Of a stretch of DNA of 42,495 bases, positions 617 through 42,375 are shown in pieces (the stretch's first letter is position 1; every line of letters begins with the position of its first letter). A model generated the notes under the pieces. It had not been told where the DNA came from, ran no database searches, and saw only the letters and a list, made by a program, of their open reading frames with translations. The position numbers and the translations under genes were made by a program. This DNA comes from Desulfobotulus mexicanus (GTDB lineage Bacteria > Desulfobacterota > Desulfobacteria > Desulfobacterales > ASO4-4): NCBI RefSeq assembly GCF_006175995.1, contig NZ_VDMB01000025.1, forward strand, positions 1 through 42,495, given 5' to 3'.

Positions 617-2872
617 ATGGGAAACTGGCATAAGACAGGATGCGTACTCTGCGCCCAGAACTGCGGGCTGGAAATTCTGGTGGAGGAAGGCCGTATGGTG
701 AAAGTGCGGCCGGATAAGGACAACCCCAGAAGCGAGGGCTATGCCTGCCGCAAGGGTCTGAATGTGCTTTATCATCAGTATCCTGCGGATCGTCTCACCC
801 ATCCCCTGAAAAGAGTGGACGGTGCCTTTATCCCCATCTCCTGGGATCAGGCCATGGAGGAAATTGCGGAAAAACTGAAAACCGGCCTTGCCGCCCACGG
901 CCCCCGCTCCTTTGCCTATCTGGGAGCTTCCGCCCAGGGCGGTCACATGGAAGCCGGGTTTGGGGTAAGCCTCATGCGGGCTTTGGGTTCCCAGAACCTC
1001 TACACCTCCGCAGGTCAGGAGTTCAGCGGAGCCTGGTGGGTGCAGGGCCGCATGTTCGGAAAACAGTACATCCTCACCGGCCCGGATGAGCATGAAACCC
1101 AGATGCTGGTGGCCTGGGGCTGGAACGGGATGCAGAGCCATCAGATGCCAAAGACCCCTATGGTACTGAAGGAAATCAGTAAAAACCCGGAACGCCTTCT
1201 CGTGGCAGTCGATCCCCGAAAAAGCGAAACTGCTGAAATTGCGGATATCCACCTTGCCCTCCGGCCGGGAACGGATGCCCTCCTCATCAAGGCCATGATC
1301 GCCATTCTGGTGCAGGAAGGCTGGGAGAAAAAAGAATACCTTGAAGCCCATTGCGAGGGCTGGGAGCGTATCCGGCCCTGGTTTGAAAATTTTGACAGCA
1401 TGGCCGCCATTGAAGTCTGCGGCCTTGCCTATGATACCGTGCATGAACTCTGCCGCCTTATGGCTACCCGCAGATGGTCCTTTCATCCGGATCTTGGCAT
1501 CTACATGGGCAGGCACAGTACCCTCAACTCATATCTGCTCAATGTTCTCGGTGCTGTCTGCGGTATTTTCGGACAAAGGGGCGGCAATATCATCCCCGGC
1601 ATGGTGATGCCTTTGGGTTCTCATGCGGATGAGCGCAGCGAAAAGGTCTGGAAATCCGCCGTTACCGGAATGCCCCCTGCCGCAGCCGGGTCTTTTCCCT
1701 GTAGCATCCTGCCCGAAGAAATCCTCACCGATCACAATGACCGCATCCGCTCCATCATCGTGAGCACCTGCAATCCCCTGCGCTCCTGGCCGGATACCAA
1801 GGCTCTGGAAAAGGCCTTCTTAAGCCTCGATCTTCTCGTGGTCTGTGACATGGTGATGAGCGAAACCGCCCGTTTGGCCCACTATGTGCTGCCCTGCCGC
1901 AGTTTCTATGAATCCTTCGATGGCACTTTCTTCCCATGGACCTATCCCGAGGTCTATTTTCAGCTGCGAAGGCCCCTTGTGAAACCCCATGGGGAAAGTC
2001 TCGAAGCCTCACAGATTTTCACCCTGCTTGCGGACAGGCTGGGACTGATCCCGGAAATTCCGGGAAAGGTGATGGAAGCCGCATCCAAAGACCGCATGAC
2101 CTTTGGGGCTGAACTCATGGGCTGGATTGCAAACCATCCGGAACACCTTTCCAAAATGCTCTTCATTCTGGGAAAAACCCTGGGCAAAGCCTGGGACAGT
2201 GCGGCCCTTGCGGCTCTCTGGGGTATGATGATGACAGCCCCGAAGTCTTTCAGAAAAAATGCGGCCCGTGCTGGATTTGAAACGGGCTTTGACATGGGCG
2301 ACCGGATCTTTCAGGCTCTGCTGGATCATCCTCAGGGACTCTGGGTTGGGAAGGTGGATAGGGAAAAAAACCTTGATGAAGTCAAAACCCCTTCCGGAAA
2401 GATCGATCTTTTCATTGAAGAGCTGGCGGAAAAGGCGGCATCCCTCAATGCAGCAGAAGAGATCAAGGCCCTGACCCTGCCGGAGGATTTTCCGCTGGTT
2501 CTCAATGCCGGGCGGCACCGCTCCACCAACATGAACACCCAGATGCGTAACCCGGAATGGATTAAAGGGAAAAGGGGCTGCACCATCGCCGTACATCCTG
2601 AAGAGGCCGCAAAACTCGGGCTTCAGGACAAAGACACCGTCCGGGTGGTCACGGAAGGGGGTAGTGCCGTAGGCGAGCTGGAGGTGAAAGAGGACGTGCG
2701 GCCGGGCATGGTGTTGATTCCCCATGGTTTTGGTCTCATCTATGACGGTGTGAAATGGGGCTTTAATGTGAATGATCTTACCATGCACACCCACCGGGAC
2801 CCCATCGGAACGCCCCTTCACCGCTTTGTACCCTGCAGGCTTGAGGTCTGTGGGGAAGAAAAGGGGCTGTGA
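617..2872 (+). CDS. Molybdopterin-dependent oxidoreductase (DMSO reductase superfamily)
   Basis: This 751-aa protein belongs to the bis-MGD oxidoreductase superfamily. The N-terminus has an Fe-S ligand pattern (GCVLCAQNCG near residues 8-17, with the fourth Cys in YACRKG), followed by the molybdopterin domains. The C-terminal dinucleotide-binding domain is marked by NAGRHRSTNMNTQMRNPEW. The ATG at 617 is preferred over an upstream in-frame TTG at 602, because GAAGGGAG sits at the right distance before it. In formate dehydrogenases and NapA-type enzymes a Cys or Sec coordinates Mo. The equivalent stretch here (around GQEFSGAWWVQGRMFG) has neither, so the ligand and substrate are unclear. No signal peptide is visible, so it is probably cytoplasmic. 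Two bases separate it from an FmdE-like gene and mobA follows, consistent with an operon that makes both the enzyme and its cofactor. The substrate cannot be named. Confidence 0.9.
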   Translation: MGNWHKTGCVLCAQNCGLEILVEEGRMVKVRPDKDNPRSEGYACRKGLNVLYHQYPADRLTHPLKRVDGAFIPISWDQAMEEIAEKLKTGLAAHGPRSFAYLGASAQGGHMEAGFGVSLMRALGSQNLYTSAGQEFSGAWWVQGRMFGKQYILTGPDEHETQMLVAWGWNGMQSHQMPKTPMVLKEISKNPERLLVAVDPRKSETAEIADIHLALRPGTDALLIKAMIAILVQEGWEKKEYLEAHCEGWERIRPWFENFDSMAAIEVCGLAYDTVHELCRLMATRRWSFHPDLGIYMGRHSTLNSYLLNVLGAVCGIFGQRGGNIIPGMVMPLGSHADERSEKVWKSAVTGMPPAAAGSFPCSILPEEILTDHNDRIRSIIVSTCNPLRSWPDTKALEKAFLSLDLLVVCDMVMSETARLAHYVLPCRSFYESFDGTFFPWTYPEVYFQLRRPLVKPHGESLEASQIFTLLADRLGLIPEIPGKVMEAASKDRMTFGAELMGWIANHPEHLSKMLFILGKTLGKAWDSAALAALWGMMMTAPKSFRKNAARAGFETGFDMGDRIFQALLDHPQGLWVGKVDREKNLDEVKTPSGKIDLFIEELAEKAASLNAAEEIKALTLPEDFPLVLNAGRHRSTNMNTQMRNPEWIKGKRGCTIAVHPEEAAKLGLQDKDTVRVVTEGGSAVGELEVKEDVRPGMVLIPHGFGLIYDGVKWGFNVNDLTMHTHRDPIGTPLHRFVPCRLEVCGEEKGL

Positions 2873-2874
2873 TC

Positions 2875-4476
2875 ATGCAGATCCGGGGTTTATCCATCGA
2901 AGCCTATCTGGAAAAAATCAGGGCCTTTCACGGTCATCTGGCTCCGGGCATGGTCTGCGGGGGCTTCATGGTGGAGCTTGCCTTTCAGAGCCTTCCCGAA
3001 GGAGGGCTCTACGATGCCATTGCAGAAACCAGAGCCTGCCTGCCCGATGCCATTCAGGTGCTCACCCCCTGCACCATCGGAAACGGCTGGCTGCGCATCG
3101 AGGATACGGGCCGTTTTGCCATTCTCCTCTATGACAAGCATACGGGAAAGGGAGTGCGGGTGGCTCTGGATCCGGAACGTCTCAAAAAGTGGCCGGAAGT
3201 CCATATCTGGGCCATGAAGCTGAAGCCCAAAAAGGAGCAGGATAAAAAACGGCTCTTCACTGAAATTATCGAAGCGGGTTTCGGGCTTTACAAGGTGGAG
3301 CGGATTGTTGTGGACCGGAAGCGTTTTCCCAAAAAAGGCCGGATTTTCACCTGTCCGGACTGCGGCGAAAGTTTCAGGGGATCGGAGCCGGGGTCTTGTG
3401 AGGCCTGCATGGGGAGGGTGGTCTTTTCCCCTTTGCGGGAGGAGCGTTCCGGGATGCAGGCCCTTCCCGTGGAAGAGGCTGCGGGCAGAAAAGTCCTGCA
3501 TGACATGACCCGCATTGAGCCGGGTATTTCCAAGGGGGCGGCCATTGTGAAGGGTCAGAGCCTTGGGGATTCGGATATCATGCTTTTAAAATCCATGGGC
3601 CGGGAAAGGGTCTATGTTGAAGAGACCGGGGTGGGGGAGAGGGGGGATTCCCTTCTCCATGAAAACGAGGCCGCCCTTGCCTTTGCGGAAAAAATGGCAG
3701 GTTCCGGCATCGGCTACCTCCCCTTTCCCAAGGAAGGAAAGATTGATTTCACGGCAAAGCAGGGTGGGATTTTCTGTGTGAACCGGGAACGCCTTATTCG
3801 TTTTAATCGCTGCGAGGGGGTGATGTGCGCTACCCGCAGGAATTTAAGCCCAGTAAGTTCCGGTATGGTGCTGGGTGGCACACGGGCCATTCCCCTCTAC
3901 CTTGAAAAATGGGACTTTGACAGGGCTATGGAGGTGCTGGCCGAAGGCCCGCTCTTTTCCCTTGCGCCCTATGTTTTTTCACGGCTGGGGGTTCTTGTGA
4001 CGGGAACGGAGGTGTTTGAAGGCCGGGTTGCGGACGGGTTCCTGCCCATTCTGGAAGAGCTTGCGGCGGGGTATGGTCTGAAAGTCTCGGAAAGCCGCAT
4101 CTGCCCGGACGATGCAAAAAAGATCGCAAAAGCCGCCTCGGAGATGGTGGCGGGAGGGGCCGAGGTGCTTGTGGTGACCGGAGGCCTTTCTGTTGATCCC
4201 GATGATGTGACCCGAAAAGCCCTTCAGGACGAGGGTCTTGTGGATGAGGTTTATGGTGCTCCTGTGCTGCCCGGAGCCATGACCCTTACCGGGCGCATTG
4301 CCTCCACCCGTATCCTTGGGGTTCCCGCAGGGGCTCTTTATTCTGCGCCCACGGCCATGGACTTTCTTCTGCCCTGGCTCCTTGCGGATCTCCCCATCAC
4401 GCGGGTCGACATGGCAAGCCTCGGGGAAGGCGGTTTTCTCGATGCCGGACGCAGGAAATTTAAGGGAAAGCCATGA
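2875..4476 (+). CDS. FmdE domain / zinc ribbon / molybdopterin-binding domain fusion protein
   Basis: The protein is ~533 aa with three parts. Residues ~3-150 are an FmdE-like domain: FHGHLAPGMVCGGFM is the typical His/Cys motif, named after the formylmethanofuran dehydrogenase operon. Next comes a zinc-ribbon-like segment at about 155-180 (CPDCGE...CEACMG). The C-terminal ~170 residues resemble the MoaB/Mog/MoeA molybdopterin-binding fold (LVTGTEVFEGRV and VVTGGLSVDPDDVTRKAL). In other organisms such domains bind molybdopterin-adenylate or insert Mo, so a role in maturing or metallating the upstream oxidoreductase is likely but inferred. The ATG at 2875 has AGGGG 8 nt upstream. An alternative GTG at 2869 would overlap the preceding stop but is too close to that Shine-Dalgarno sequence. 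mobA begins 13 bp downstream. Confidence 0.85.
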   Translation: MQIRGLSIEAYLEKIRAFHGHLAPGMVCGGFMVELAFQSLPEGGLYDAIAETRACLPDAIQVLTPCTIGNGWLRIEDTGRFAILLYDKHTGKGVRVALDPERLKKWPEVHIWAMKLKPKKEQDKKRLFTEIIEAGFGLYKVERIVVDRKRFPKKGRIFTCPDCGESFRGSEPGSCEACMGRVVFSPLREERSGMQALPVEEAAGRKVLHDMTRIEPGISKGAAIVKGQSLGDSDIMLLKSMGRERVYVEETGVGERGDSLLHENEAALAFAEKMAGSGIGYLPFPKEGKIDFTAKQGGIFCVNRERLIRFNRCEGVMCATRRNLSPVSSGMVLGGTRAIPLYLEKWDFDRAMEVLAEGPLFSLAPYVFSRLGVLVTGTEVFEGRVADGFLPILEELAAGYGLKVSESRICPDDAKKIAKAASEMVAGGAEVLVVTGGLSVDPDDVTRKALQDEGLVDEVYGAPVLPGAMTLTGRIASTRILGVPAGALYSAPTAMDFLLPWLLADLPITRVDMASLGEGGFLDAGRRKFKGKP

Positions 4477-4489
4477 CCGGTAAAAAACC

Positions 4490-5101
4490 ATGATAAACGA
4501 CTGCACGGGTGTTATCCTTGCAGGCGGGCGCAGTACCCGCTACGGAGGGCGGAACAAGGCCCTGGCTCCCTTTGGTGAGGGCCGCCTCATGGATGCCGTG
4601 CTCAGGCCCATGACAGAAATTTTTGGCGAAAAAATCCTCATCGTAAGCCGGGAAACCGGCCTCTATGGGGATTTTGGTTTTCCTGTGGTTGCCGATGTTC
4701 TTCCCGTTCCCGGAGCTGCCACGGGCATCCATGCAGGCCTTTTTCATGCGAAAACGGATACCGTTTTTGTGGTGGCCTGCGACATGCCCTTCATACGACC
4801 GGAGCTGATCCGCCTTGTGCTTTCACACATGCATCCTCCCCTCCTTGCCCTTTTTCCCTGCCATGGGAAAAACCATCTGGAACCCCTGTGCGCCGCCTAT
4901 CACAGGGACGGCCTTCCTGTCCTTGAAAGCCACATCCTTGAAGGCAAAAGCAAGGTGCAGTGGATTTTTACGAATGAAAAGAAAGGTCTTGTGCCGGAAA
5001 GCCTTCTCAGGGAAGCGGATGAAGATCTGCAATCTTTTATCAACATCAATTCACCTGAGGATGCAAGGAAGGCAAGGGAGGCATTAATGATGTTTCCGTG
5101 A
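4490..5101 (+). CDS. mobA: Molybdenum cofactor guanylyltransferase MobA
   Basis: MobA attaches GMP to Mo-molybdopterin, giving the guanine dinucleotide cofactor used by DMSO-reductase-family enzymes. The 203-aa sequence has the nucleotidyltransferase signature GVILAGGRSTRYGGRNKA (residues 7-24, with Lys23) and the metal-binding VVACDMPF (Asp98). The length matches the family. It is the third gene of the molybdenum operon, so it would supply the MGD needed by the first gene product. The Shine-Dalgarno sequence is weak, suggesting translational coupling to the gene 13 bp upstream. Downstream, a 347-bp palindromic element lies between the stop codon and the first terminator at 5531. Confidence 0.92.
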   Translation: MINDCTGVILAGGRSTRYGGRNKALAPFGEGRLMDAVLRPMTEIFGEKILIVSRETGLYGDFGFPVVADVLPVPGAATGIHAGLFHAKTDTVFVVACDMPFIRPELIRLVLSHMHPPLLALFPCHGKNHLEPLCAAYHRDGLPVLESHILEGKSKVQWIFTNEKKGLVPESLLREADEDLQSFININSPEDARKAREALMMFP

Positions 5102-5160
5102 ACCTGTCAGTTGGTGCGAGGGAGCCTGTTCATCTGCAGTGCGGCTGTACATATCCTGAT

Positions 5161-5507
5161 GTAATTATTCAGCATAAATTTTTTAAGTCCTATACCTCAG
5201 GCAGATCCAGAGGCACCCAAGCTATTTGCCCGTGACGCAATCTTATTCGGGAGCTTCTTGCCCTGTGCGGAAGCGGCAAAAACTCCCCGCCACAGGCAGG
5301 ATAAGCTTTTTGATTGCCATAGCTGGCTTAAGCACGCTGCCTCTGTGGCGGCTCAGACAGTTTGCCGCTTCTTTCGCACAGGGCTTCAAAGCTCTGATCC
5401 GAAACGATTGCAACGTCACTTACAAATAGCCGGGGTGCCTTACAATAGAGCTGAGCCCATGAAATTATAGCATTGGAATTTTGAATTAAAATGTGCTGAG
5501 CAATTAG
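5161..5507. repeat. Palindromic MITE-like element, copy 1
   Basis: This is one of two related ~350-bp intergenic elements (the other is 31031-31382). The ends are inverted repeats: TAATTATTCAGCATAAATTT at 5162-5181 against AAATGTGCTGAGCAATTA at 5489-5506. The whole element is an imperfect palindrome. For example, GGCACCCAAGCTATTTG on the left matches the reverse complement of CAAATAGCCGGGGTGCC on the right. CCTGTGCGGAAGCGGCAAA is mirrored by TTTGCCGCTTCTTTCGCACAGG. The core (about 5230-5425) is highly similar to copy 2, while the arms outside it are less conserved. No plausible protein is encoded. It lies between the mobA stop and the operon terminator. Any target-site duplication is unclear. 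Confidence 0.8.
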
Positions 5508-5530
5508 ATCCTGAGAAGGAACAACAGGAT

Positions 5531-5561
5531 GCAGCCCTTCATGGCTGCCTTTATTTTTTTT
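5531..5561 (+). terminator. Rho-independent terminator, plus strand
   Basis: GCAGCC (5531-5536) and GGCTGC (5543-5548) form a stem with a 6-nt loop, followed by CTTTATTTTTTTT. It would end plus-strand transcripts from the molybdenum operon after they cross the palindromic element, and it overlaps the 3' end of the convergent foldase gene. Confidence 0.7.
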
Positions 5562-6627
5562 GCTCTGAAGCATCCATGCGCTCCTGCAATGCCGCAGCAA
5601 TGCGCTCACGCCTGCGCATGGACTCCGCATCTTCTCCAAAGAATTGGTCCTGAAGGATGTTCAGTTTCTCCTGTTTTTCTTCAGCATGCAGGGAGCTATC
5701 CCTAAGAAGGGCTTCCCTTTTCTCTCTGTACTTTTCTTCCCTTTCCCGTTTTGTGTGAATCTCCTGTTCCACAGCCTCCATGCGTAGTACGGCTTCTTCT
5801 GGAAGGGTTTCCTGTCTCAGGGCACGGATACGCTCTTGCCTTTCCGCATCGGAAGCCATGTGGGCAAGATCGAGCTTATGCACTTCCAGAAGTTCACGGT
5901 ATTGCTGATAGGGATTCCGGGAAAGGGGAGGGGGATCATCTCTTTCCAAGCGGTAATTGTTATCCAGATCCTGCAGGGCGTGAAGTTTTTCCCGGGCACT
6001 CATGTCCGGATTGGACACAATCTCCACCCGGTCCATGCGATATCGGCCCTCCGCCATTTCCTTTCCAAAAAGCCATTCCGTATGGGTTTCACCCATATGG
6101 GCGATACGGAAATTTCGGACATCCTCCCAGAAAGCCAGGCGTTCTTCCCGGTTTTGCGGTACCTTCTGCATGGTAAGGTAGTCCGCAAGATCCATCTCAC
6201 TCTGGATATAAGAGTCATAAACAGCAAGTATGGCTTCGGCACTCTCGTTATCGTAATTTTCAAACAGCCAGGCCCGCACCGCATCCATGTGCTCCACATA
6301 ATCTGCAACCTGACCGAACTCCTGGGTCATCCAGGCAAACAGGGCACGCACCTCTTCACCCTTTTTCTGATCCATGAGATCCGCCATCAGATCCGGACTG
6401 CTTTCATCCTTTTTTTCCAGAAAAACAGGGGGAGGAGGGGGGGGCAGGGGGGAAAAAGTCTCGCTTCTGGGATCCTCAGAAATTTCATGGCCTGAGGATG
6501 GATTGGCATGTATTATTTTTTTTTCTTCTTTTCCCTGAGGGTAGAGATACAGAATCGCAGCCGTCATGATCAGAAAGAAAATTCCAATCCAGCCAAGGCG
6601 GGGTACATGACGGAAAAATATCCGCAT
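5551..6627 (-). CDS. Lipase-specific foldase (lipase chaperone, LifO/LipB family)
   Basis: Foldases of this family are anchored in the inner membrane and help their partner lipase fold in the periplasm before type II secretion. The 358-aa protein has one N-terminal membrane anchor (residues ~12-29), a proline-rich linker (SPLPPPPPPVF, ~59-69) and a long charged helical region. It contains foldase-like segments (for example HTEWLFGKEMAEGRY and YREKREALL). The family hallmark RxxFDYxLSA is very degenerate: RALFAWMTQEFG (from Arg94) keeps only Arg and Phe. It lies directly downstream of a lipase gene on the same strand, which supports the assignment. An AAAAGGAGG Shine-Dalgarno sequence precedes the ATG. 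A terminator-like hairpin separates it from the lipase gene, so foldase expression may depend on readthrough. Confidence 0.85.
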   Translation of the reverse strand: MRIFFRHVPRLGWIGIFFLIMTAAILYLYPQGKEEKKIIHANPSSGHEISEDPRSETFSPLPPPPPPVFLEKKDESSPDLMADLMDQKKGEEVRALFAWMTQEFGQVADYVEHMDAVRAWLFENYDNESAEAILAVYDSYIQSEMDLADYLTMQKVPQNREERLAFWEDVRNFRIAHMGETHTEWLFGKEMAEGRYRMDRVEIVSNPDMSAREKLHALQDLDNNYRLERDDPPPLSRNPYQQYRELLEVHKLDLAHMASDAERQERIRALRQETLPEEAVLRMEAVEQEIHTKREREEKYREKREALLRDSSLHAEEKQEKLNILQDQFFGEDAESMRRRERIAAALQERMDASEQKK

Positions 6628-6643
6628 GGTCAGACCTCCTTTT

Positions 6644-6686
6644 AAAAAAAGAACCCTCTGATCCCACAGAGGGGACCAGAGGGTTC
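6644..6686 (-). terminator. Terminator hairpin between lipase and foldase genes
   Basis: GAACCCTCTG (6651-6660) and CAGAGGGTTC (6677-6686) form a perfect 10-bp stem. Read on the minus strand it is followed by a run of T (complement of 6644-6650) and then by the Shine-Dalgarno sequence of the foldase. It fits a partial terminator or attenuator that would give more lipase than foldase mRNA. That effect is inferred. Confidence 0.75.
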
Positions 6687-6703
6687 ATAAAAAAAATAAA
6701 AGA

Positions 6704-7582
6704 TCAATGACCTTTTTGTTTCAGATCCGCAGCAATGCTCTTATAAAATTCCGGGGCGTTGAAACCGGGGGTGATACCAAAAAACATACCTACGACATTC
6801 AGATGATCACAGCCCGGAGAATACCAGGCCGCCTGCTGTACGCCCCTGAAGTCTCCCCATTGGGCACTTTCCACACTGACAAGGCCGTCATTTTCTCCTT
6901 CAAGGCCCAGCATGATGAGCCAGGGCACCTGCATTAGCACACTGGGTGCTCCCCACTTGGCCTTAGCTGCCCAGCTTTGATAATAGATCCCATCTATATC
7001 AGGAGTATTGGGATTGAAGTGATCCTGCACGATCTCCGTGGTCACATCCCAGCCATTGGCAAGGCTGTCGGGATTCTGATCCCCCATAATAAGGGCATAG
7101 ATTATGTCCATGGCACCTCCTGCCAGACCATGCAGTTCTCCCGGAACTCCATTCATAATCATATCGGCCAACTTGCTACCCTGATGGGGGCCTGCAATAC
7201 TGGTGTGGCTGGCAACTTTATCCCCAAGATCCAGATTGCTGATGGCATAGCGGGAATAGAGGGTGCCATGGGAGTGGCCGATAATATTTACTTTTTTTGC
7301 ACCGGATGATGCAAGGATTTGAAGAACCTGATTATTGAAATCAATGGCTTTTGCTTCCGTGGAGTCCATGCCATTGACAGAGGTCACATATACCTCAGCC
7401 CCTGCCCGCTCCAGAGCTGAAGGGATGGCGCCCCAGTAATCCATGATACCCACAATTTTTTCAGAAGCACCCATGCCGTGGGCCAGCACTATGGGATATT
7501 GGGTGTCATATTTTGCCTGCGCAGCCGAAATGAAAACACAAAACAGGAAGATTGCGGTCAAAGGTGCGGTTTTTCCATACAT
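6704..7582 (-). CDS. Secreted triacylglycerol lipase (family I, foldase-dependent)
   Basis: This 292-aa alpha/beta-hydrolase begins with a signal peptide (cleavage likely after AAQA, residue 23). It shows the oxyanion HG motif YPIVLAHGMGA and the nucleophile elbow GHSHG with Ser105. Asp232 (GENDGLVS) and His260 (GCDHLNVVG) complete the catalytic triad. The pattern and length match Pseudomonas/Burkholderia-type true lipases that need a foldase, and a foldase gene follows. In those enzymes two Cys form a disulfide. Here the mature protein has a single Cys (258), so the disulfide is absent. AAAGGAG precedes the ATG. The product is probably exported by Sec and then by type II secretion, with long-chain triglycerides as likely substrate. 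Confidence 0.92.
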   Translation of the reverse strand: MYGKTAPLTAIFLFCVFISAAQAKYDTQYPIVLAHGMGASEKIVGIMDYWGAIPSALERAGAEVYVTSVNGMDSTEAKAIDFNNQVLQILASSGAKKVNIIGHSHGTLYSRYAISNLDLGDKVASHTSIAGPHQGSKLADMIMNGVPGELHGLAGGAMDIIYALIMGDQNPDSLANGWDVTTEIVQDHFNPNTPDIDGIYYQSWAAKAKWGAPSVLMQVPWLIMLGLEGENDGLVSVESAQWGDFRGVQQAAWYSPGCDHLNVVGMFFGITPGFNAPEFYKSIAADLKQKGH

Positions 7583-7688
7583 GGCATGCTCCTTTCATCG
7601 GGTGTTTTTTTTGCTTTAAAAAAACTTCGAGATAACAGTGGTGGAACGTGTAGGATGCTTGGTGAACAGTGTTTATGGGTGTGTGCAA

Positions 7689-7715
7689 GTTATATGTGTG
7701 CAAGCTTTCTGTCAA
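7689..7715 (-). promoter_or_regulatory. Predicted sigma-70 promoter of the lipase operon
   Basis: Read on the minus strand, TTGACA (7710-7715) is followed by TATAAC (7689-7694) at 15 bp spacing, or by TAACTT at 17 bp. It lies ~105 bp before the lipase start. The rest of 7583-7866 shows no gene. Confidence 0.45.
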
Positions 7716-7866
7716 GCTAAAATGTTTTTTATAGGTGAGCTGTTTTTATGTGTCCGGTTCAAAGGGCAGGGAGGTGAAATAAAATAGCCGTATTCATCGG
7801 ATCATCAACAAATCAAAAAAGATAAAGGAATGCAAGCTGGGGGATGATAAAATATCTGCATGGCTT

Positions 7867-9204
7867 TCATGGTTCTCCATAGAGTTTCAGCTTGTTGTGC
7901 AGGGTTGCCCGTGTAATACCAAGTATCCTTGCGGCTTCGGATTTATTTCCTGCAGCCTGCTCCAGGGTTTTTAAAATTGCCTGACGCTCCAGATCCGCAA
8001 GGGTTTTGCCCAATTCTCCGGAAGGGAGGCAGTCTGCTATACCCATGGGCAGATGGTCTTCTGTAATGGTGTCTGCAGGGCAGAGGATAACAGCCCTCTC
8101 CACGGCATTTTCCAGTTCCCGCACATTGCCAGGCCATTTGTGATGTAAAAGGGCATCCATGGCTCTGGGGGAAAAGCGCAGTACATGTTTTCGGTTTTTT
8201 TCTGCATAGTGACGCAGGAAGTGATGGGCCAGTAAAGGAATATCTCCATTGCGTTCATTCAGTGGCGGGATCTGCAGATGCAATACATTGAGTCTGTAAT
8301 ACAGATCTTCCCTGAAGGTTTTTTCCTTGACGGATCGGACCAGATCCTGGTTGGTTGCCGCAAGAATCCGAACATCCACCTTCAGAACTCTGTCGCTGCC
8401 CACCCTTTGCACCTCCCCCTCCTGAAGAGCCCTCAGCAGTTTTGCCTGCATGGCAGGGGAGGTCTCACCGATTTCATCGAGAAAAAGGGTGCCACCATCG
8501 GCCTGCATAAAGCGGCCTTCACGCCTGCGGTCTGCTCCGGTAAAGGCACCCTTTTCATGCCCGAAGAGTTCCGATTCAAGCAGGGCATCCGTGAAGGCAG
8601 CGCAGTTTAAGGGGATAAAGGGTCTGTCTTTTCTGGGACCCATGGCATGGATGGCTTTGGCTATGAGCTCTTTACCAGTACCGGACGGGCCTGTGATTAG
8701 TACGGTGGCTTCGCTGCTGGCCATGGCCGTAAGCATTTCCATCATTTTTTTCATTACCGTACTTTTACCTATGATATCGGGAAGGCCGGGGTGGGCTGCC
8801 ACCTGCTCTTTCAAACGACGGTTTTCATCTTTCAGGCGACTGTGTTCCAGGGAGCGGGATAAAAGAATACGGAGTTCATCAAAGTCCAGAGGCTTGGTCA
8901 GGTAGTCGTAGGCCCCGGCTTTCAGGGCTCTGCGTGCAGAATTTACGGAAGAATAGGCAGTCATGATGATGATGGGGAGGGCCGGGTTCCAGCTCAGCAT
9001 CTGCTCTAAGGCCTCAATGCCGGAAATCCCTGCCATGCGGACATCCATGAGTATGGTATCCATGGCATCTTTTTTAACCATTTCCAGTGCTTCTTCGCCA
9101 CTTTGTGCCTCTTCAATCCCATAGCCAAAACCTGAGAGCAGGGTTTTCAGCATTTTTCTGTGCGCATCATCATCATCCACCACAAGGATCTTTGCTGTTG
9201 TCAT
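7867..9204 (-). CDS. Sigma-54-dependent response regulator (ZraR/NtrC family)
   Basis: This 445-aa protein has three domains. The receiver (1-120) has the acidic triad and phospho-acceptor Asp54 (ILMDVRM). The AAA+ sigma-54 activation domain has Walker A GPSGTGKE (172-179), the sigma-54-contacting GAFTGA loop (219-224) and Walker B GGTLFLDE (237-244). A Fis-type helix-turn-helix lies at the C-terminus (NKSEAARILGITRATLHNKL). It should bind enhancer sites and activate RNA polymerase-sigma-54 on phosphorylation. Its partner kinase gene ends 26 bp upstream. A sigma-54 promoter and paired dyads occur in the divergent region ahead of the kinase, and a ZraP-like gene is the likely target. The ZraR assignment rests on this arrangement. 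Confidence 0.93.
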   Translation of the reverse strand: MTTAKILVVDDDDAHRKMLKTLLSGFGYGIEEAQSGEEALEMVKKDAMDTILMDVRMAGISGIEALEQMLSWNPALPIIIMTAYSSVNSARRALKAGAYDYLTKPLDFDELRILLSRSLEHSRLKDENRRLKEQVAAHPGLPDIIGKSTVMKKMMEMLTAMASSEATVLITGPSGTGKELIAKAIHAMGPRKDRPFIPLNCAAFTDALLESELFGHEKGAFTGADRRREGRFMQADGGTLFLDEIGETSPAMQAKLLRALQEGEVQRVGSDRVLKVDVRILAATNQDLVRSVKEKTFREDLYYRLNVLHLQIPPLNERNGDIPLLAHHFLRHYAEKNRKHVLRFSPRAMDALLHHKWPGNVRELENAVERAVILCPADTITEDHLPMGIADCLPSGELGKTLADLERQAILKTLEQAAGNKSEAARILGITRATLHNKLKLYGEP

Positions 9205-37798: not shown

Positions 37799-37896
37799 GC
37801 AATATGGGTATTTGTAACGTTGCAGAATTCCTTGAAAACGCTGGATAATGGGGTGGCGGAAAAAGGGACTGCAGAATCGCTACAGGAGAATAGACC

Positions 37897-40800
37897 ATGT
37901 CGAAGGAAGTTATTGGATCCGCTGTCGTCGTGGGTGGGGGTATCACCGGGATGCAGTCGGCGCTGGACCTGGCCGATGCCGGGTACTATGTGTATCTGGT
38001 GGAAAAAGGGTCGTCCATTGGTGGCGTAATGTCACAGCTGGACAAGACCTTTCCGACCAACGATTGCGCAATGTGAATTATCTCACCTAAACTGGTCGAG
38101 GTCGGCCGGCATCTGAACATTGAATTACTGACTTTAAGTGAAGTAACGTCCATCAGCGGTGAAGCCGGAAATTTCGAGGTCGAAGTTTTCAAGAAGCCCC
38201 GTTATGTAGATATGGACAAGTGTATTGCCTGTGGTGCGTGTACGGAAAAATGTCCTAAAAAAATTGATGACCTGTACAATGCATCCTTGAAAAAGCGTAA
38301 AGCCATTTATGTGGAATACGATCAGGCAGTGCCCCTGAAGTATGTTATTGATCCTGCAAGCTGTATCAAGCTTACCAAGGACAAATGCGGCAATTGCGCA
38401 AAAATTTGCCCTGCCGATGCCATCAATTATGATGACAAGGCGGAAACCCTGAAGCTGAACGTGGGTTCCATTGTTCTGTCTCCGGGTTTCAAGCCCTTTG
38501 ATCCAACCATTTTTGATACCTACCAGTATGCAAAATTTCCCAATGTTGTGACCTCCATGGAGTTTGAAAGAATTCTTTCCGCCTCCGGTCCTACCATGGG
38601 ACATCTTACCCGTATGAGCAAGGATCATGCGGAACCGAAGAAGATAGCATGGTTTCAGTGCGTTGGTTCCCGTGATATGAACCGCTGTGACAATGCATAT
38701 TGTTCATCGGTATGCTGCATGTATGCCATCAAGGAAGCGGCCATTGCCAAGGAGCACAGTGGTGATGATCTGGATTGTGCCATCTTCTACATGGACATGC
38801 GTACCCACGGAAAAGACTTTGAACGCTACTATGAGAATGCCAAAAAGAAGGGCGTTCGCTTTGTCCGCAGCCGTGTGCATACCATCAATCCTATTCCTGA
38901 AACAGATTCCCTTGAAGTCCGCTATGTGACCGATGACGGTCGTCTTGAGACGGAAGTCTTTGACATGATCGTTCTGTCCATCGGCCTTGAAACGGATCCA
39001 TCCACGGTGAAGCTTGCCAACGATCTGGGTATCAAGCTCACCAAGGGTAACTTTGCCGAATTTGAGACCTTTAAGCCGGTTTCCACTTCCCGTGAAGGGA
39101 TTTTTGTGGCCGGTGCCTTTGCAGGGCCCAAGGATATTCCCCAGGCCATGATTGATGCCTCGGCTGCAGCTTCTGCTGCGGGTGAGCTGCTGACATCGGC
39201 CAGGAATACCCGTACAAAAACCGCAGAGGCAGTGCCTGAAACAAATGTTGCCGGTGACCGCCCGAGGGTGGGTGTTTTTGTCTGCTCCTGCGGCTCCAAC
39301 ATAGCCGGTACTGTGGACGTGAAGGCTCTGGCAGAGTATTCCGAAACCCTGCCCTATGTGGAGTATGTGACCAACAATCTCTTTGCCTGTTCCCAGGATA
39401 CTCAGGACAAGATGGCTGAGATCATCAAGGAAAAGAACCTGAATCGGGTGGTTGTGGCGGCCTGTACGCCCAAAACCCATGAGGGACTCTTCCAGGAAAC
39501 CCTGATTAATGCCGGTCTGAACAAGTATCTCTTTGAGATGGTCAACATCCGTAACCATGATTCCTGGGTACATAAGGAAACTCCGGATCTGGCCACGGAC
39601 AAGGCTAAAGATCTGGTACGCATGGGTGTTGCCAAGGCTTCTCTGTTCGAGCCTCTCCGTGAGGGCGAGCTGAATGTAAACCAGACTGCCATGGTGGTGG
39701 GTGGTGGTGTTGCGGGTATGACCGCAGCCAAGGCCCTTTCAAACCAGGGATACCAGACCCACATCATAGAAAAATCTGATCGTCTGGGTGGTCAGGCTTT
39801 GAATATATTTAAAACCATCAAGGGCGAAGATGTGGCGGAGAAGGTTGCGGAGCTGGAAAATGCCATCAAGGTGGATGACAGCATAACCGTGCACCTGAAT
39901 ACGGAAATTGCCACCGTTGATGGTTTTGTGGGTAATTTTAAAACTCAGCTCAAAGGTGGTTCAGAGCTTCTGCTTGAGCATGGCATTGCTGTCATGGCCA
40001 CAGGGGCTTCACCCTTCCAGCCCAGCGAATATCTCTATGGAGAAGACCCCAGGGTCCTCACCAGCCTTGAGATGGATATGAAGTTTAAAACCAAAGATCC
40101 CATTCTGGACAGTGCTGAAAGTGCTGTTTTCATCCAGTGTGTGGGATCCCGTCAGCCTGATCGTCCCTACTGCTCCCGCGTGTGCTGCACCCACTCCATT
40201 GATAATGCCCTGGAGTTGAAAAAACATAAGCCGGACATGGATGTCTTTATTCTGTACAGAGACATTCGTACCTACGGCGAAAAGGAGTATCTCTACCGTG
40301 AGGCAAGGGATGCCGGTGTGATTTTCATCCGCTATGAGCTTGATGCCAAGCCTGTGGTGGAAAAGGTTGGTGACAGGCTTGTGGTTCGGGTTAAGGACCA
40401 TGTCCTTGGTCGTGCTCTGGAACTGAAGGCAGATATTCTGACACTGGCTTCTGCCGTTGTTCCCAACAAGATCCAGAAGCTGGCCCAGTTTTTCAAATTG
40501 TCCATGAATAATGACGGCTTCTTTGTGGAGCGCCATGCCAAGCTCGGACCCAGCGAGTTTGCCACAGATGGTGTCTTCCTTGCCGGTACTGCCCACTATC
40601 CCAAGCCCCTGGATGAAACCGTGGCCCAGGGAAGGGCAGCTGCGGCAAGGGCTGTTACTCTGCTGGCCAAGCAGAAGGTCTACACCTCCGGTCAGGTGGC
40701 TAAGGTTGATCCTGCTGTGTGTTCCTCCTGCGGTATCTGCGTGAGTGTGTGTCCCTATTCTGCCCCCAGCGTTATGGATACGGGTTATTATGCGGGTAAG

Positions 40801-40929
40801 GCTGAAATCAATCCCGTTCTCTGCAAGGGCTGCGGCCTTTGTGTGGCGGCCTGCCGCAGCGGTGCCATTCACCATGGCGGCTTTGATAACAGTCAGATTT
40901 TTGCGCAGATCTTTACCATGAGTGCATAA
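37897..40929 (+). CDS. hdrA: HdrA-like electron-bifurcating flavoprotein, selenocysteine-containing
   Basis: The 1010-aa protein is read through an in-frame UGA at 38074-38076 (codon 60), which is very probably selenocysteine: the context NDCAM[15 protein letters not shown] is the HdrA motif where Cys or Sec is found. Translation from ATG 37897, with AGGAGAA upstream, gives an FAD fold ([20 protein letters not shown], ~10-29). Next come ferredoxin motifs ([12 protein letters not shown] from Cys109; Cys156, 164, 167, 171) and QCVGSR. From ~459 a second, HdrA N-terminal-like part begins ([14 protein letters not shown]). A second FAD fold ([20 protein letters not shown]) and two C-terminal 4Fe-4S motifs follow. 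HdrA sends electrons from a donor to ferredoxin and a second acceptor. The next genes (mvhD, FdhB-like) support a cytoplasmic soluble complex. Confidence 0.93.
38074..38102 (+). promoter_or_regulatory. UGA codon and candidate SECIS in hdrA
   Basis: UGA at 38074-38076 is followed by a hairpin: ACCT (38085-38088) with AGGT (38099-38102), and one further C-G pair. The apical loop TGGTC (38093-38097) starts 16 nt after the UGA. E. coli fdhF has a comparable spacing and a GGUC loop. This is a visual match, not a folding calculation. Confidence 0.6.
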
Positions 40930-40936
40930 CCATTTT

Positions 40937-40971
40937 CCTTTCAGGGTATCCCAAAGGGATGCCCTGAAAGG
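40937..40971 (+). other. Strong intercistronic hairpin between hdrA and mvhD
   Basis: CCTTTCAGGGTATCCC (40937-40952) pairs with GGGATGCCCTGAAAGG (40956-40971), with one U-G wobble and a 3-nt loop. No T run follows, so it is unlikely to terminate. Such hairpins commonly protect or segment operon mRNAs. Confidence 0.7.
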
Positions 40972-40996
40972 ATTCTATACATAAGGAGAAACAGCC

Positions 40997-41428
40997 ATGA
41001 GCTGGGAACCTAAAATTGTGAGTTTCCTTTGCAACTGGTGCAGCTACGGTGCGGCGGATCTGGCAGGCGTAAGCCGGTTTCAGTATCCCCCCAACATCCG
41101 GGTTATCCGCATCCCCTGCACGGGTCGTATGAGTCCGAAATTTTTCCTTTCCGCTTTGAGGGAAGGTGCCGATGCCGTATGGGTATCCGGCTGACATCCC
41201 GGTGACTGCCATTACCTGGAAGGTAATTACTATGCACGCCGCAGATTTCAGCTGTTCAACGACCTGATGGAACACATGGGTGTGGAACAGGGTCGTCTCC
41301 ATTATTCATGGATCTCTTCCGCCGAATCCACCAAGTTTGTGGAAGTGGTCAAGGAAGTAACGGATGCTGTAAAAGCCGTTGGTCCCAATACTAATTTTGT
41401 GAAGCGTTACATGAAGGAAGCGGAATAA
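40997..41428 (+). CDS. mvhD: MvhD-like [2Fe-2S] subunit, selenocysteine-containing
   Basis: The 143-aa protein is read through UGA at 41192-41194 (codon 66). The flanking VWVSG[20 protein letters not shown] is the MvhD/VhuD motif VxGCHPGDCHY, where homologues have Cys and some have Sec. The N-terminus has [20 protein letters not shown] and [13 protein letters not shown]. The frame stays open to TAA at 41426-41428, giving the normal length. Stopping at the UGA would leave a 65-aa fragment without the conserved HPGDC. AAGGAG precedes the ATG, and the TAATG at the 3' end overlaps the next start. MvhD passes electrons to HdrA. Confidence 0.93.
41192..41227 (+). promoter_or_regulatory. UGA codon and candidate SECIS in mvhD
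   Basis: UGA (41192-41194) is followed by ATTACC (41211-41216) and GGTAAT (41222-41227), a perfect 6-bp stem with loop TGGAA. The loop starts 22 nt after the UGA and has G in its first two positions, as in bacterial SECIS consensus. The stem is simple and needs folding support. Confidence 0.55.
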
Positions 41429-42375
41429 TGAGCGGAAACATCGACAGGATTAAAGAGATTGCCCGCGGCCTTCTCGAATCAGAGAAGGTCGATGTCGTGA
41501 TCGGCTTCAAAAAGGGAACGCTTCCCGTCATGAGTGAGCCGACCATCATCCGTAAGGCATCGGATACAAAGGATCTGATCTGGGACGCCACCTGCCGTCT
41601 CAATCTTTGCAATTATTTAACGGGCCGCAAGGACCGGATCGGTATCATTGCCAAGGGCTGTGATGCGCGTAACATTGTTGGCCACATAGTTGAAAACAAG
41701 ATCAAGCGGGATCAGCTTGTGATCATCGGTGTACCCTGCACTGGCATGGCGGACAAAAAAGCCCTGAGCGACCTTGCAGGCGGCGAAGTAACGGCCTACA
41801 GCGAGGCTGGTGATCAGATTACGGTAAAGGGTCCTGCCGGAGAAAAGACCGTTAATAAGGCAGATGTTCTCCAGTCCAACTGCAGCACCTGCATCAAGCG
41901 TAACCCTGTAATTTTTGACGAGATGGCAGGGGAGCCCGTGGAAGAACCAACCCTTGAAAATCGCTTTGCCGACGTGGAAGCCATTGCAGCCATGGATGCG
42001 GGTACCAAATGGGCGCACTTTGAGGAGCTTCTTTCCGGCTGCACCCGCTGCTATGCCTGCAAGAACGCCTGTCCCTTATGCTATTGTCCCACCTGTTTTG
42101 TGGACGAATCCCGTCCCCAGTGGGTAGGTAAGGGAACTGACCCCATGGATATTCGCACCTACCACTTCCTGCGGGCCTACCATTGTGCAGGACGTTGTAC
42201 GGATTGTGGTGCCTGTGAGTCGGCTTGTCCCATGGATATTAAAATGCGTGCCTTCACACGGAAAAGCATCAAGGATTGTGTGGACAACTACGGTTGGGAA
42301 ACGGGCATGAAGGAAGGTGTGCGGCCTCCGCTGGATACCTTTAAAACCGATGACCCCGAGGCCTTTATCCGCTAG
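41428..42375 (+). CDS. FdhB/FrhB-like iron-sulfur protein
   Basis: This 315-aa protein has an N-terminal part like the F420-hydrogenase/dehydrogenase beta family (IGIIAKGCDARNIVGHIVENKI and VIIGVPCTGM). Two 4Fe-4S ferredoxin motifs follow at about residues 206-225 (CTRCYACKNACPLCYC) and 255-270 (CTDCGACESACPMDI). It overlaps mvhD by one base (TAATG) and so is translationally coupled. In Hdr-type complexes such subunits deliver electrons from formate, F420 or NAD(P)H; the actual donor here is not determined. A 4-Cys stretch near CSTCIKR may bind another cluster. Confidence 0.85.
   Translation: MSGNIDRIKEIARGLLESEKVDVVIGFKKGTLPVMSEPTIIRKASDTKDLIWDATCRLNLCNYLTGRKDRIGIIAKGCDARNIVGHIVENKIKRDQLVIIGVPCTGMADKKALSDLAGGEVTAYSEAGDQITVKGPAGEKTVNKADVLQSNCSTCIKRNPVIFDEMAGEPVEEPTLENRFADVEAIAAMDAGTKWAHFEELLSGCTRCYACKNACPLCYCPTCFVDESRPQWVGKGTDPMDIRTYHFLRAYHCAGRCTDCGACESACPMDIKMRAFTRKSIKDCVDNYGWETGMKEGVRPPLDTFKTDDPEAFIR

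Follow-up and report, generated by a model that had tools for sequence, protein, structure and literature searches.

The closest systems described up to now come from Deltaproteobacteria. As far as the accessible text of the papers goes, HdrA proteins with selenocysteine (Sec), together with FrhD/MvhD, were reported in this group in 2006, 2009 and 2016 (PMC1794560, PMC2702500, PMC5109826). The paper of 2006 deals with Sec HdrA accompanied by Sec FrhD and gives seven HdrA in Syntrophobacter (PMC1794560). D. autotrophicum has Sec HdrA1, HdrA2, HdrL1 and HdrL3 and four MvhD, and the idea of a selenium switch was already raised for this species (PMC2702500). D. multivorans has a UGA in both hdrA and mvhD (PMC5109826). 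Adjacent Sec hdrA-frhD genes are found in Asgard archaea (PMC11227280). In Methanococcus maripaludis selenium switches Sec and Cys sets of proteins which include HdrA (PMC11097638), and the HdrA of methanogens has been missed by gene callers at Sec codons (PMC12054007). A review of 2026 places HdrA and MvhD/FrhD among the proteins with a CxxU motif (PMC13188914).

The locus that we have studied resembles those of Syntrophobacter fumaroxidans, Desulfotalea psychrophila, Desulfobacterium autotrophicum and Desulfococcus multivorans, as they appear in the available parts of their descriptions: a UGA codes for Sec both in HdrA and in the adjacent FrhD/MvhD, and there are fused or split forms of HdrA. 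The preliminary description of our locus had drawn attention to a bacterial Sec HdrA beside a Sec MvhD. The pair is supported, but it has long been known from the same three papers. The Sec HdrA found here is real, well supported and ordinary for its group.

The window (the whole stretch of DNA analysed, 42,495 nucleotides) starts with the 3' end of a 23S rRNA gene (1–151) and a 5S rRNA gene (293–409). Further on there are a molybdopterin oxidoreductase (602–2872), a fusion of FmdE with a molybdopterin-binding protein (2869–4476) and a frame which by eye is MobA-like (4490–5101). The gene of interest lies towards the other end, with the following features:

37884..37889 (+): Shine-Dalgarno-like AGGAGA, 7 nt upstream of ATG 37897
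37897..40929 (+): hdrA, from ATG 37897 to TAA 40929, 1010 aa, with one in-frame UGA
38074..38076 (+): UGA codon 60 of hdrA, read as selenocysteine
38092..38109 (+): candidate SECIS hairpin of hdrA, 7-bp stem, loop AGGU, loop 22 nt past the UGA
38212..40929 (+): ORF obtained by standard reading, 905 aa, without residues 1–105

We give a probability of about 95% to the reading of hdrA 37897–40929 as a functional selenoprotein gene, on the basis of sequence comparison. Translation would start at 37897 and run through to 40929; the UGA of codon 60 would be decoded as Sec by SelB, tRNA-Sec and the hairpin 38092–38109. Sec60 would stand in the first flavin domain where a conserved CxxC has its second Cys.

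The TGA at 38074–38076 is the sole interruption of the hdrA frame. When it is translated as a residue the motif NDCAM-U-IISPK appears; the UGA announced at codon 60 inside this motif is thus confirmed. In the ORF listing of the window the longest standard ORF (905 aa) begins at ATG 38212, so that 105 residues of HdrA are dropped. They contain a GGG-type dinucleotide-binding start and the motif C57-x-x-U60. This loss had been described as that of the first FAD domain: the number of residues is right, but what disappears is the N-terminal Rossmann part and not the whole domain. With the standard reading of hdrA, an enzyme central to energy metabolism loses a conserved redox motif.

The UGA might also be a true stop, with a restart at 38212 and a 905-aa HdrA devoid of the first Rossmann part. 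Such an ORF is present, and UGA is an ordinary and common stop here: it terminates 15 of the 28 ORFs taken as genes of the window. However, codons 1–59 show 13 synonymous and no non-synonymous changes with respect to G026, another genome of the genus, a pattern which indicates that they are under purifying selection. Furthermore residues 7–117 align without any gap to solved HdrA, and the hairpin is kept at the synonymous level. A truncated HdrA has only a slim chance of being correct.

An error of sequencing or assembly, with TGA in place of TGC or TGT, should also be considered. One base change would be enough, and a Cys paralogue in the same genome has TGC. But the two other genomes of the genus in the order-wide search, G026 and G086 (96% identity), have one TGA each in the same motif, so that an error is very unlikely; it is contradicted as well by the same TGA in at least 40 more genomes of the order, and by a hairpin which is conserved in TGA genes only. 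The preliminary description had mentioned this kind of error as an objection; we leave it practically no weight. A match at 96% identity belongs to D. alkaliphilus, from which the genus is taken as Desulfobotulus.

The best 43 matches to HdrA come from 43 of the 146 genomes of the order, with exactly one TGA in each. At least 43 of the 146 genomes have the TGA; the weaker matches listed are a mixture with and without it. Homologues had been expected to carry Cys or Sec at position 60, and this is the case wherever the motif was read: the residue is U or C. A tally of the motif which admits any residue gave 70 U, 22 C and 1 S. The S of locus L048 is due to a second match which is spurious; this locus really has U. 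In the solved structures the counterpart of residue 60 is Cys197 in 5odc_A; there is a Cys in four of them (5odc, 8rvu, 8rvv, 7bkb) and an X in 9sfi_A, which is most simply a selenocysteine.

The hairpin of hdrA is formed by CUGGUCG (38092–38098) and CGGCCGG (38103–38109), with the loop AGGU (38099–38102) in between. A candidate SECIS had been proposed at the right distance from the UGA. The hairpin is there and it is conserved, but its loop is AGGU instead of GGUC and it extends beyond 38102. The bSECISearch program is said to look for a hairpin shortly downstream of the UGA, with a small loop which has an early G. The hdrA hairpin agrees with criteria of this type by its 7-bp stem and its AGGU loop 22 nt from the UGA. 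A fold of the region 38070–38120 had also been suggested: taken alone, the folding energy of the hairpin is unremarkable, with z values of −0.43 (52 nt) and −1.25 (40 nt). We have rejected single-sequence folding as a proof of SECIS because of these weak z-scores; the support comes from conservation instead. No Rfam SECIS family has a match in the window, where the only matches to attain the gathering score are two of rRNA; seven permissive Rfam matches in 37800–41500 are all below their gathering scores.

Conservation was studied in 160 unique HdrA windows (132 Sec and 28 Cys) out of 181; those near an end and identical ones were removed, and the pattern used admits U or C only. The exact 18-mer of the hairpin is found in 118 of the 132 Sec windows vs none of the 28 Cys windows, and the full seven pairs in 122 and none respectively. 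The mean number of pairs in Sec windows is 6.83 and falls to 4.11 or less when the partner strand is slid by 1–3, whereas in Cys windows it is 4.36, with 4.00 or less after sliding. Most Sec and Cys genes alike encode LVEVGR at the hairpin. The synonymous entropy of codons +6 to +11 is 0.12, 0, 0, 0, 0.27 and 0.53 bits in Sec genes, to be compared with 1.55, 1.89, 0.94, 1.41, 1.66 and 2.18 bits in Cys genes; most codons which flank the hairpin have a similar variation in both groups. Fourteen of the 132 Sec windows do not have the exact 18-mer. Six of them (L194, L195, L199, L202, L205 and L206) correspond to another type of HdrA with the motif NDCAI-U-ILSPKMLDVGRH: they have the TGA and 4 of the 7 pairs in the usual register. 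The decisive evidence for Sec in HdrA is comparative: the hairpin is conserved in Sec genes only.

A search for selA, selB, selC and selD had been recommended. The source genome (G000, 3.83 Mb, 98% complete) has selA (631.2 bits), selB (379.4), selD (380.8) and tRNA-Sec (75.4), all above the curated cut-offs. Its selD (L029, G000:C12:40864-41781) contains one in-frame TGA, so that SelD is probably a selenoprotein too. In-frame TGA is not confined to a single gene, which would also agree with a general reassignment of UGA to a residue, without SECIS-directed insertion. The chance of such a reassignment is negligible: TGA ends the 15 ORFs mentioned above, the genes for Sec insertion are present, and both TGA codons of the operon are accompanied by a conserved hairpin, one for each.

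Apart from its Sec, this HdrA has two thioredoxin-reductase-like flavin domains and ferredoxin domains. Between the two flavin domains lies a part with homology to the N-terminal domain of archaeal HdrA. The alignment with 5odc_A (E 4.6e-183) is made of three stretches, which cover the flavin, N-terminal-type and ferredoxin parts. The protein scores below all three NCBIfam HdrA cut-offs (957.5/1100, 743.3/1400 and 685.6/1300 bits): these models describe archaeal forms, so we consider it HdrA-like, of another subtype. The four-Cys motif is kept in both flavin domains. The first one has E224 and K279, which correspond to E356 and K409; these last two have been proposed as marks of bifurcating HdrA (PMC12054007, in its available text). 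The second one has D727 and D769 at these sites and no CxxC. Since both marks are present in the first domain and absent from the second, Sec60 lies in the domain which likely holds the bifurcating flavin.

Some matches align only from about residue 100, which looked like a loss of the N-terminus. We have rejected this interpretation for L159 and L167: the N-terminal part is found upstream, with other frames in between, an arrangement to be compared with the 'hdrA_N-unknown-hdrA_C' quoted in the accessible part of PMC1794560. In these split HdrA (L167:907-7107 and L159:620-6789) the first 120 residues or so, including the Sec motif, are encoded upstream and the rest is in a frame of about 1100 aa with a [2Fe-2S]-like start. 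In L167 the intervening frame is by eye NuoE/NuoF-like. For L063, L064, L065 and L147 no upstream N-terminal part was seen in the stretch examined.

Downstream of hdrA we find the following features:

40997..41428 (+): mvhD (FlpD family), 143 aa, with one in-frame UGA
41192..41194 (+): UGA codon 66 of mvhD, read as selenocysteine, in G-U-H-P-G-D-C
41211..41227 (+): SECIS-like hairpin of mvhD, ATTACC / TGGAA / GGTAAT
41428..42375 (+): iron-sulfur protein of 315 aa, with which an NAD(P)H-oxidoreductase-like module begins
C25:42411-43442: second iron-sulfur protein of the module, beyond the window on the same contig
C25:43589-44428: FAD/NAD-binding protein of the module, beyond the window on the same contig

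MvhD scores 174.8 bits, vs a cut-off of 22.3 for Pfam FlpD. The presence of a Sec MvhD beside the Sec HdrA holds: it has a UGA at codon 66 and its own conserved hairpin, with all six pairs in 69 of 71 Sec rows vs 1 of 19 Cys rows. The support for this hairpin comes from comparison, as the minimum-energy fold of the mvhD sequence of the window is different.

The state of both proteins, Sec (U) or Cys (C), agrees in 89 of 90 unique HdrA-MvhD operons: 70 are UU, 19 CC, one is CU and none UC. The discordant operon (L130/L248, in G041) has a Cys HdrA and a Sec MvhD. Operons without an MvhD motif in range were excluded from the 90 pairs (39 Sec and 5 Cys in the first set, 9 Sec and 4 Cys in the second), as were one spurious apparent 'G' and four loci without HdrA motif (L147, L151, L161 and L163). 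Identical rows alone were removed because the loci overlap partly between collections. A tree obtained by a quick method has four independent contrasts on supported branches and five on all branches. In the four contrasts MvhD follows HdrA three times, never opposes it and is unchanged once (p 0.25). With four contrasts only and this p value, we have rejected the coupling as a statistical proof.

Some Cys operons hold hairpin-like remnants in both genes. In L070 they differ from the Sec hairpins by one base in MvhD and by two in HdrA. Such remnants are consistent with a joint change from Sec to Cys, the likeness being owed in part to shared amino acids. Loss of the Sec machinery is not an evident reason for the Cys versions and is unsupported as a cause, since selB is above its cut-off in the 10 genomes tested. 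selA is above it in 8 of the 10; the two genomes without a selA match, G106 and G077, are 77% and 89% complete. In G023, a genome of the order, two genes exceed the cut-off of the selB family, at C95:10709-12601 (380 bits) and C31:4171-6069 (303 bits).

According to the accessible text on a solved Hdr complex, the MvhD-type [2Fe-2S] cluster is at least 25 angstrom from the bifurcating flavin in the electron-passing state, and the transfer is called unknown (PMC12350162). Sec60 of HdrA and Sec66 of MvhD might belong to a single redox relay, each at one of its ends, in which a two-electron selenol/thiol step would bridge the gap between the MvhD cluster and the flavin. The matched state in 89 of 90 unique operons would fit, yet we consider such a relay unlikely. 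The same reading would have the complete enzyme, in its Sec or its Cys form, switched by the supply of selenium.

The source genome has a second full-length HdrA in contig C44. It is 62% identical to the first one, has Cys (TGC) and is accompanied by a Cys MvhD. This Cys operon is a likely stand-in when selenium is low, a role to which we give about even odds. In G026, with a 96% identical HdrA, the Sec and Cys operons are found on one contig with HdrA starts 17.2 kb apart. The aligned pieces of the two hdrA copies have 67–70% DNA identity and the mvhD copies 66.2%, while the copies of the three-gene module are 98.7% identical over 2,978 bases (94.8% with mvhD included). Divergent Sec and Cys heads are thus placed on a near-identical module, which suggests a selenium-dependent isoenzyme pair. 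Sec and Cys versions of one operon coexist in a genome, as in a pair of the Vhu/Vhc type. That they would be switched by selenium here is a guess, made by analogy. Together with the matched state of HdrA and MvhD, both operons in one Desulfobotulus genome provide a natural experiment on the role of selenium in flavin-based electron transfer, with two versions of the enzyme on a nearly common partner module.

In G026 the Sec module is followed by a stretch with a match to the dsrC region of C44, and before the Cys HdrA comes an HdrC/D-like CCG protein. In L067, between the module copy and the Cys HdrA, we find an HdrC/D-like CCG protein (4624-5943), a carbon-nitrogen hydrolase (6460-7308), a NirDL/AsnC-like protein with a siroheme decarboxylase-type domain (7314-7760) and a DsrC-family gene (8266-8583). 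In the source genome contig C25 has the Sec operon followed by 861 nt (44432-45293) without match in G026:C1:225000-258000; contig C44 has pieces of the module at its two ends, and one of these pieces lies before dsrC. The FAD/NAD subunit has two close copies in each of three genomes. G026 gives a settled order of the operons; for the source genome a real rearrangement would fit, and so would a switch between copies in the assembly.

The complete downstream module is found in contig C25, which has 45,293 bases. By inspection of the ORF lists no hydrogenase gene was recognised beside the Sec HdrA. The Sec HdrA would work together with the adjacent Sec MvhD and this NAD(P)H-oxidoreductase-like module. 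By analogy with Flx-Hdr (PMC10553843, PMC4759654) we infer a route in which electrons would go from NAD(P)H to the module, then to MvhD and HdrA, and from there to ferredoxin and a second acceptor. By flavin-based bifurcation the Sec-HdrA complex probably moves electrons among NAD(P)H, ferredoxin and a third partner, either a disulfide or a carrier of the DsrC type; our confidence in this role is moderate. The selenium-dependent bifurcation put forward in the preliminary description is a hypothesis. A selenoprotein without bifurcation, in a plain NAD(P)H-linked electron-transfer complex, is possible but rather unlikely. In its favour, the counterparts of the module genes in a sister genome resemble sulfhydrogenase beta/gamma and AsrA/AsrB, with scores under the cut-offs; among the ORFs listed no hdrB/hdrC gene was recognised beside the Sec HdrA; and both marker residues are missing from the second flavin domain. 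Against it, both residues are present in the first domain, and the available parts of the literature attribute bifurcation to Hdr complexes which contain MvhD and NADH modules (PMC10553843, PMC4759654).

In the accessible text of the open-licence literature we recognised no report of the pair of Sec and Cys operons of Desulfobotulus, nor of a count of the Sec/Cys concordance of HdrA and MvhD. The matched state of the two proteins and the paired operons are what we add here, as leads. A system with a similar set of genes is FlxABCD-HdrABC of Desulfovibrio, reportedly described by Ramos et al. in 2015. Its HdrA, MvhD-like subunit, iron-sulfur proteins and FAD/NAD-binding protein all have counterparts here, as far as the available text tells (PMC10553843, PMC4759654). 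A DsrC-family gene near the Cys operon is a further point of likeness, which is one of gene content only; no hdrB/hdrC gene was recognised beside our Sec HdrA.

The SECIS elements of Archaea are located outside the coding frame, unlike the hdrA hairpin found here. Archaeal type II HdrA has two flavin domains in one chain, with the equivalents of E356 and K409 in the first, as in our case; in the accessible text both residues are present in 75% of the type II sequences (PMC12054007), while our second domain has D727 and D769. In Methanococcus the Sec HdrA and Sec VhuD belong to one operon and there is also a Cys set (HdrA(U)/Vhu vs HdrA/Vhc), as it is the case here. There the partner is a hydrogenase and the regulation by selenium has been measured (PMC11097638, available text). 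Among Deltaproteobacteria, several published operons contain hydrogenase subunits (frhG, frhA) in the parts of the papers available, where our locus has an NAD(P)H-oxidoreductase-like module. In D. multivorans, according to the same partial sources, hdrA1 adjoins mvhD1 and a pyridine-nucleotide oxidoreductase, an arrangement like that of the locus described here.
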